NCBI RefSeq assembly: GCF_052324685.1
Contig: NC_135220.1
Location: forward strand, 5,435,350 to 5,499,349
Direction of reading: 5' to 3'
Origin: Brachyhypopomus gauderio
Lineage: Eukaryota; Chordata; Actinopteri; Gymnotiformes; Hypopomidae
DNA: 64,000 bases
Position 1 is the stretch's first letter. Each line of letters starts with the position of its first letter. The notes beneath the pieces were generated by a model, which saw nothing but the letters and a program-made list of their open reading frames with translations, was not told the DNA's origin and did not search any database. Made by a program: the position numbers and the translations under genes. Below are positions 10,659 through 13,600 of this stretch, piece by piece.

Positions 10659-13600
10659 TCAGACGTCAGGGTCCTTAGGTAACAGAGACCACCGTGGCTG
10701 GTAGCTTCTCAACCACCCCTGCACCACCTGAGGAAGCACAAAACAGATTCCAGCTTTTAAAACTCTATACTTGACTGTATACACATATGCCAGGAGTGGC
10801 CAACCCGCGGCTCTTTGCCTGGTTTCATGCGGCTCCCCAGCCGGTCCGCGGGCTCACCTGCACAAACGGGGCGACACACTGCTACATTTTCGTGGTGCGC
10901 GGTTAGTTTACAAGCCTAGCGAGCCGGTAATACTTTTAAAACCGGCGTAGTGGAAAACACGCATTTGACTGTCTTCACAGCTAATAATTTACACTCGCCC
11001 CCCCCCCCCCCCCCGCTCAACAGATTACACTCGCCCATGTACGATGTGGCTCTTTGCCGTAACACAGTAAGAAAAGTGGCTCTTGGTCTATGACGGGTTG
11101 GCCACCCCTGACATATGCAATGGTACATTTATATTTTAGACATTTAGCAGACACTCTTATCCAGAGCGACTTACAAAAGAGCTTCGTCATCTACTCACAG
11201 AATGTGTCCTAGCCAGTACAGTAGGGTAACCACAGAATGTGTCCTAGCCAGTACAGTAGGTTAGAGTCACAGAACTAGAATACTGGTAACATTCAGGAAT
11301 CAGCACTGTTCCATATGTCATTAATGCCATTACGTTTACGGCATTTGGCAGACGCCCTTATCCAGAGCCACTTACATTTTTATCTCTTTTTTTTTTTATA
11401 CAAGTGAGCAATTGAGGGTTAAGGTGCCTTGCTCAGGGGCACCTCAGTCATGGTCTCAGGTCTGGGGATCGAACCCACGACCCTCCGGTCACAAGACCAG
11501 TTCCCTAACCACCAGCCCATGAGTGCCCCATTAATGAGTGTTTATGCTTCAGGGTGTATTACTTTGGTGTCTATTGTATCGTTTATGCTTTAGGGTGCAT
11601 TACCTTAGTGTCTGTAGGTGTATATATGCTTAAAGATGCATTACCTTAGTGTCTGTAGGTGTATTTATGCTTCAAGATGCATTACCTTAGTGTCTGTAGG
11701 TGTGTTTATGGTTCTGGGTGCATTACCATATTGTCTGTTGGTGTGTTTATGCATCAGGGTGCATTTCTTTAGTGTCTGTACTGTCTGTAGGTGTGTTTAT
11801 GCCTCTGTGCATTATCTTACTGTCTGTAGGTGTGTTTATGCTTCAGGATGCATCACCTTAGTGTCTTTATGTGTTTATGCTTCAGGGTGCATCACCTTGC
11901 TGACTGTAGTGTCTGTAGATGTATTTATGCTTCAGGGTGCATCACCTTAGTGTCTGTAGTGTCTGTATGTGTGTTTATGCTTCTGGGTGCATCACCTTAG
12001 TGTCTGTAGTGTCTGTAGGTGTGTTTATGCTTCTGGGTGCATCACCTTAGTGTCTGTAGTGTCTGTAGGTGTGTTTATGCTTCAGGGTGCCTCACCTTAG
12101 TGTCTGTAGATGTCTTTATGCTTCAGGGTGCATCACCTTAGTGTCTGTAGTGTCTGTATGTGTGTTTATGCTTCAGGGTGCATCACCTTAGTGTCTGTAG
12201 TGTCTGTATGTGTGTTTATGCTTCAGGGTGCCTCACCTTAGTGTCTGTAGTGTCTGTATGTGTGTTTACGGTTCAGGGTGCCTCACCTTAGTGTCTGTAG
12301 GTGTGTTTATGCTTCAGGGTGCCTCACCTTAGTGTCCTCCTCTTGCCACAGCATATCCACTTCTGCCTCATTCAACTCTTCAGACGGGTCATATGTGTAG
12401 ACCGGGAGCAGTTGGTGCCGCAACCTATCAATTCTGGAGGAAAAGAGGGCGGAGTTAGAACGTGTCACCAATGCTGTGCAACACTGCGTGCAGATTGGTT
12501 ATTATTCGTACCACATTTCACACAGGAAGTGCTTCTGATCCAACAGTTTCATAAGTTTGTCCGTCATGAACTGAAGGTCATTTTGGTGAAGAATGATCAA
12601 ACATGCTGGCTGTTAAAATGTATCAAGAAGTTACTTGGAAATACTGCTGTACTAAAGCTTGATTTGAAATGACCATTAACACAATTAAAGTGCACATTTA
12701 GTTTCAATGTGTTTCCCTTCATCAGACAAACCTTTTAAGAACCATCACTTGAGATGATGTGTTACACTGAATAAGTACCTTGTGTTTAAAGCCACAAACA
12801 TTCTATGAGCGTGTGCATAAACAGGACAAGATATGCTCTCTGAGAAAGTTCCCATTGGCAAGTAGGTTTCAGAGCTAAAGTTTTCAGAGTATTTTGCACA
12901 CTGATGTCACAGGGGCAGGCGCACACAGCCCTGTCTACAGGACTGTGAGGGTTCATTTTGTTTTAGGTTTGTAATAAGCGTCAGGTTAAAGAATTAATTT
13001 CATGTTCAACATGTGTGGAACTACTCGGTATGATTTCAGAACAAAGGAAACCCAGCAGACATGGGACCGGCCCAGACTTAATGAGCATGGGTTCTGTTTG
13101 GAAGCCTGAGCCTTTTCTCATGAGAACCTGGTTAACCAGGTTTCAGGTTCTTGACAACAAGCAGGACCTCTGGCCATGTTCTCAAGTACTACAGAAAAGC
13201 TTGCATAACAGCCAAATGGTGCAATCAGCCAAGTTGCTTTAGCAGAATCAGAGTTCCCTTCCCAGTAATAGCACGTCCATCATGGCTGTTAGCGGAACGG
13301 CACTGTGCAGTGATCTGTGCCTAGAACCAGAGGCTGAGGTTGATCAGAAGGCGGTCAGAGGTCAGAGGTCACAGGTCGATGGATCAGAGGCTGTTCCAGT
13401 TTAGAGCATCTAGTTAAGGAACTTTGATGGTTATTTATTTGTCTGTTTAATAATTTTGCCATCTTATTATTTTACTACATAATGGTGAGGTCATGGTCTG
13501 GTGGTAGGGAACTGGTCTTGTGACCAGAGGGTCGTGGGTTCGATTCCCAGGCCTGAGGCCACAACTGAGGTGCAAGGCCCCTAACCCCAACTGCTCGCCG

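Follow-up and report, generated by a model that had tools for sequence, protein, structure and literature searches.

How does a splice donor come to lie inside a minisatellite, and which donor serves the message when the array behind an exon repeats the border between that exon and its intron? The question is raised by a minus-strand gene in the window (the whole stretch of DNA analyzed here, 64,000 nucleotides) which, following the earlier note, we take to be smim29; a Pfam search with its protein gave zero hits above the cut-off. Coding exon 1 (15127..15234, on the minus strand like all smim29 features below) starts with an ATG that we read as the start, exon 2 (14762..14787) has 26 nt encoding VLYLRRRR plus a partial codon, exon 3 (12328..12433) has 106 nt with an open frame of 36 residues, preceded by AG and followed by GT, and exon 4 (10662..10727) encodes 22 residues and then a stop codon, behind the acceptor tgcttcctcag. 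Exon 3, which a protein search of the same genome recovered at 95% over query residues 44-82, ends in frame with …EEDTK, and exon 4 takes up the frame with VVQGW, the first base of intron 3 being 12327.

TRF and a dissection into units place at 11541..12336 (minus strand) a minisatellite of 796 bp, composed of 18 units of 39-50 nt, which in the TRF call reaches 9 nt into exon 3. According to the unit dissection, the base unit measures 41 nt and many copies contain a 9-nt internal duplication; within the array, a 191-bp higher-order repeat adjoins exon 3. The outermost unit, unit 1, is the genuine exon 3-intron 3 border, its core (12319..12336) joining the last 9 nt of the exon (GACACTAAG) to the real donor GTGAGGCAC. 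Besides unit 1, the donor 9-mer AAG|GTGAGG occurs in 3 of the 17 further copies, namely copies 2, 3 and 6, whose last “exonic” bases are 12287, 12237 and 12096, and copy 6 matches unit 1 at 41 of 41 aligned bases. Copies 4, 5 and 7-11 (11857..12187, a span that also holds copy 6) carry AAG|GTGATG, with the G at +5 replaced, while copies 12-18 (11563..11816), the most diverged end, read GTAATG (4) or GTAATA (1) or have lost the GT (2). Sorted by donor, the 17 other copies comprise 3 identical to the real one, 11 with a weaker GT and 3 that are dead or nearly so, the last two classes being made up of 7 AAG|GTGATG, 3 AAG|GTAATG, 1 ATG|GTAATG, 1 AAA|GTAATA and 2 copies without GT. AAG|GT is kept in 14 of the 18 units, and by eye we saw no clear pyrimidine tract before the AG of any unit. 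Just past the array lies a SINE-like insertion (11327..11528, minus strand; read by eye) with CATTAATG on both flanks.

Scored with a human donor position weight matrix (PWM), AAG|GTGAGG reaches 11.1, AAG|GTAATG 7.2, AAG|GTGATG 7.0, ATG|GTAATG 5.2 and AAA|GTAATA 3.4, and the copies without GT fall below 0; no decoy donor is stronger than the real one and 14 of the 17 score lower. Pairing with the 5' end of U1 amounts to -10.1 kcal/mol for the best donor (GTGAGG) against -6.7 kcal/mol for GTGATG. Among 26 hand-picked arrays of the window, donors scoring at least 9 occur only in this array and at 46829-46930. The earlier note had described an array that copies the donor at the end of exon 3, an exon end that appears to form part of the repeat unit and at least three copies identical to the real donor; the TRF array does take in the donor together with 9 exon nucleotides, the exon end stands in register with the unit, and the identical donors lie at the three positions given above. 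Its figure of up to about a dozen decoys is fair when the weak ones are counted, but only 3 equal the real donor.

The unit appears to be confined to this locus. In the window, 16 matches to the core with at most 3 mismatches were found, unit 1 included, all of them in the array, where shuffled sequences lead one to expect 0.13. Across the genome (796.5 Mb, 840 contigs), the exact 17-base border occurs 4 times, all 4 within the array, and a DNA search with the whole array, in which the best candidates were scored, returned a single full-length match, the array itself, together with 7 weak pieces at four other places, 65-73% alike. Three of these four places (all but the C5 place) were fetched; each is a GT-rich array in which no core was found even when 4 substitutions were allowed. 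An origin of the unit from a dispersed repeat or transposon is not supported, since elsewhere only weak pieces were found, and those at the three fetched places are GT-rich and lack the core. The protein search returned just one other exon, 44% alike over 32 residues, with a different end and no array at its donor; near it, TRF reports a 5-bp repeat about 400 nt downstream of the donor and a 40-bp array upstream of the exon.

What a wrong choice among these donors would do to the message can be stated exactly. The extension produced by every decoy reads GTG AGG CAC CCT GAA GCA TAA, that is, VRHPEA-stop, in 17 of 17 cases, and the in-frame TAA responsible (12307..12309, minus strand), which lies in unit 1, ends every decoy-spliced or intron-retaining reading. 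The earlier expectation of repeat-encoded residues or stops has thereby become one precise sequence shared by all 17 copies, and every wrong donor choice in intron 3 has a single predicted outcome. For the nearest decoy this stop precedes the junction by 20 nt, and for the other 16 by at least 70 nt. By the rule for nonsense-mediated decay, which refers to a stop 50-55 nt before a junction, these 16 transcripts are predicted candidates for decay. Only the unit-1 donor yields the full protein, …EEDTK of exon 3 continuing in frame with VVQGW of exon 4, and for that reason it is most likely the one at which functional mRNA is spliced. Low-level splicing probably also occurs at the three identical copies, which would yield the truncated tail VRHPEA-stop, and all decoy transcripts but those of the nearest copy would be open to nonsense-mediated decay, so that copy number could slightly lower smim29 output. 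A precedent for decoy use is human ABCA7, in which the second unit of a like arrangement serves as a donor (PMC5954066). The locus offers a test bed for the choice that the spliceosome makes among four identical donors in one intron.

As to the origin of the array, we consider that it was seeded when the exon 3-intron 3 border was tandemly duplicated, and that the unit-1 donor dominates in splicing, with a probability of roughly two in three. The duplicated segment would have comprised 9 bases from the exon end, the donor and about 30 bases of the intron, the resulting 41-nt unit would have multiplied into the intron, and turnover would have been concentrated at the exon end, so that near copies stayed alike and far copies decayed. 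Copies indeed differ more from unit 1 the farther they lie from the exon (Spearman 0.79, P 2e-4), with a mean divergence of 5% in units 2-9 and 16% in units 10-18. The best reading is a border origin because the units keep the register of the exon end, the unit is found only at this locus and the copies diverge away from the exon; from these observed features of register, unit, locus restriction and gradient we infer that the border preceded the array. The suggestion of the earlier note that the array probably grew from the border has gained these supports, the direction of origin being a probable one. The same gradient would also be expected if a pre-existing array were homogenised beside the exon, which counts against seeding at the border. 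The complete identity of units 1 and 6 indicates that the real border probably takes part in the exchange within the array. The ancestral state of the donor is not clear, because the G at +5 of the real donor is the minority state, present in 4 of 18 units. A different origin, in which the intron itself was born by tandem duplication of AGGT, was considered and rejected, the exon-4 acceptor tgcttcctcag|GTGGTG not being a copy of the unit; the array ends 813 nt before this acceptor.

The array might instead have begun inside the intron and reached the exon edge by exchange, unit sequence taking the place of the bases on either side of the border, the first of the intron and the last of the exon, and the donor of the unit being a captured copy and not the seed. 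The identity of units 1 and 6 at 41 of 41 bases suggests exchange across the border, as such a history would involve, and arrays can reach donors from the intron side, since several in the window end just short of one, with gaps of 7, 12, 14, 16, 31 and 32 nt. However, all 18 units, including the most decayed, align to the exon end in the same register, which would hardly be expected from late capture of the donor, and the D-x-K before the junction, which we take to match the pattern of human SMIM29, would mean that the exon end predates the array; we therefore regard an intron-first origin as unlikely. An assembly artefact, or a repeat collapsed or expanded in assembly, would be conceivable because the copy number rests on one assembly, but differences of up to 32% between units and variants peculiar to single units, at a locus inside a 25.3-Mb contig and with the one full-length genomic match mentioned above, make it scarcely credible. 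The real donor and its decoys might also evolve in concert, the donor being overwritten from its own array and writing into it, as the identity of units 1 and 6 would allow. We hold this to be quite unlikely; distal copies may in that case preserve older versions of the donor, GTAATG and then GTGATG. Were it true, part of the donor's strength would come from turnover of the minisatellite, the proportion of truncated or decayed transcripts would be tuned by the length of the array, and arrays at other donors of the genome would point to a recurrent process.

A very improbable reading is that the array is a functional splicing element whose spare donors or AC-rich tracts aid the splicing of intron 3, either through recursive use of AAG|GTGAG or through base pairing with the end of the intron, of the kind described for some introns of fish. 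It could draw on the retention of AAG|GT in 14 of the 18 units and on a transcript strand that looks AC-rich by eye. Literature of both kinds can be cited for it: AC/GU-rich tracts at the ends of fish introns are described as pairing (Lin et al., as cited in PMC7404189), and human genes, UBC for example, are described as having dual-specific AG|GT sites in tandem repeats, with counts of human introns inside such repeats (PMC10809524). The smim29 array resembles the fish introns in having simple repeats at an intron end, and UBC in having a unit that carries AG|GT. Yet its duplex with the intron end (-110.3 kcal/mol, against a shuffled mean of -101.0) does not clearly stand out, 8 of 60 shuffled tails being as low, whereas the fish tracts are described as pairing; in UBC each of the two splice sites falls within a unit of a coding repeat, whereas here only the donor does. 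The units moreover have no good pyrimidine tract before the AG, as judged by eye, and they decay freely.

Selection against the decoys, another explanation that we considered, has left no clear sign, the donor columns having about as many states as the others and somewhat more minority cells: extra states per column number 0.78 in the donor columns vs 0.72 elsewhere in the unit, minority cells 1.78 vs 1.16, and among 33 stretches of nine columns that of the donor comes 12th. We thus find no clear sign in the sequence that decoys mattered to fitness. Units with GTGATG are predicted to fold into a tighter hairpin (-8.3 vs -5.0 kcal/mol), and with a 150-nt window setting their donors have the lowest predicted accessibility (0.000, vs 0.001-0.005 for GTGAGG), a difference that is small with a 240-nt setting. 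In predicted structure the real donor is not exceptional: nine other donors of the window span a range of accessibility that includes its own.

Two more arrays in the window overlap a donor. One (39192..39501, plus strand; a 62-bp unit x5) reaches 13 nt into an exon of smc1a, a gene named by its match to solved SMC1A chains; this exon ends with DISQEE and its last base is 39204. Instead of GAGGTACT, the four further copies have GACCTAC (2), in which the GT is lost, or GCGGTATT (2), reading GCG|GTATTG. The other (49663..49693, plus strand; a 14-bp unit x2.2) includes 1 base of an exon ending with MKIRK, whose last base, 49663, was set by hand, in a gene that is presumably pfkfb, a label based on its motifs; this 14-bp repeat copies the donor of its exon. 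Six further minisatellites on the plus strand (34647, 35962, 39920, 52315, 56570 and 57299) begin 7-32 nt past smc1a or pfkfb donors. Many of the smc1a donors at 30974-41937 (plus strand) are weak by the human donor matrix (GTACNN, GTGCNN, GTCTGT), and real donors near arrays were not significantly weaker than others in the window (Mann-Whitney P 0.20, 9 vs 28). Arrays at 46829-47258 (plus strand) have donor-like units with CTGGTAAGG and GTGGTGAGG, and no exon was seen alongside them.

Do array edges favor donors more generally? Of 26 intron arrays in the window, 9 overlap a donor or begin at most 35 nt from one, where 1.9 would be expected (P 2e-5); 4 come that close to an acceptor, again with 1.9 expected (P 0.11). 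The null was placement inside the same intron over 38 hand-mapped introns, with arrays, introns and thresholds chosen after the window was seen. This test left out repeats of period below 10 and one exonic array (34558-34601), and it used manually placed exons in three genes, with some acceptors approximate; the end of one exon was taken as 56555 here and as 56556 in the donor-strength test. With a rotated repeat mask, applied to the 26 of 38 introns of at least 180 nt, coverage was not raised at donor positions +7 to +46 (269 vs 246 nt, P 0.37) or near acceptors (P 0.76). The clustering may be explained by constraint at exon edges, where arrays would be cut off; arrays that copy the donor itself are not explained by such constraint.

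Outside the window, a PWM search of array edges (20 stretches, 200 kb, 81 arrays, 150 edges, score at least 8.5) found 4 donors pointing into and 2 away from arrays, and array edges showed no excess over random intervals in the same stretches (2.7% vs 3.5%, the latter from 70 into and 58 away among 2000 edges). The same method yields 6 vs 4 of 96 edges in the window itself, finding little even there because many of the true donors score low, so that the comparison carries little weight. We also collected 26 exon-end tags from regions picked without regard to arrays, of which 10 were dropped for want of a clear donor and 16 accepted, 15 from random stretches and 1 from a flank of the window (one accepted donor, at 6159 of L025, is off by one base); in this small sample, 5 of 16 donors had a repeat of any period at most 36 nt away, 1 of them a minisatellite. 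This minisatellite, a 14-bp array in L019 (8506-8702), starts at the fifth intron base of a gene that we take to be NPLOC4-like. L031 (2929-3358) contains a 25-copy array of a 17-bp unit, TCAGGTGAGGACTCTGT, with the strong donor-like CAGGTGAGG, and no exon was identified beside it. If arrays generally grew from donors in this genome, duplicated splice sites would often derive from minisatellites.

The human gene IFI6 (6-16, G1P3) contains a minisatellite whose unit, at 12 bp, is shorter than the one described here. As in smim29, where the copies are candidates, this minisatellite supplies several donors downstream of an exon, and two downstream units are used there, giving three mRNAs, as reported in PMC4526556; the IFI6 minisatellite is the subject of a paper by Turri, Cuin and Porter (1995), cited in PMC4526556 and PMC2572611. 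Decoy use is thus reported for IFI6 and predicted for smim29. Exon 18 of human ABCA7 has as its donor the first GT of a 25-bp VNTR in intron 18, and use of the next donor can leave one unit in the message, out of frame (PMC5954066); unlike that repeat, which is described as beginning at the donor GT, the smim29 array includes 9 exon bases. The human locus is length-variable and was tested at the RNA level. Human CBS has a 31-bp VNTR at the exon 13-intron 13 boundary in which more units go with lower enzyme activity (PMC5188458); it is described there as non-coding, unlike the array of smim29, which includes coding bases. In the sections seen, one intronic minisatellite of C. elegans is linked to alternative splicing (PMC4039745), and the text on the many tandem repeats of Nothobranchius has nothing on splice donors (PMC2688266). 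A small literature search listed no paper on the smim29 locus or on donor-edge arrays in fish among its matches. The novelty that the earlier note implied for a donor-spanning minisatellite must be given up in view of IFI6, ABCA7 and CBS. The smim29 array joins these human examples as a new example of one type, repeats at or across a donor; the smc1a and pfkfb arrays of the same window are two more arrays, newly seen here, that overlap a donor.
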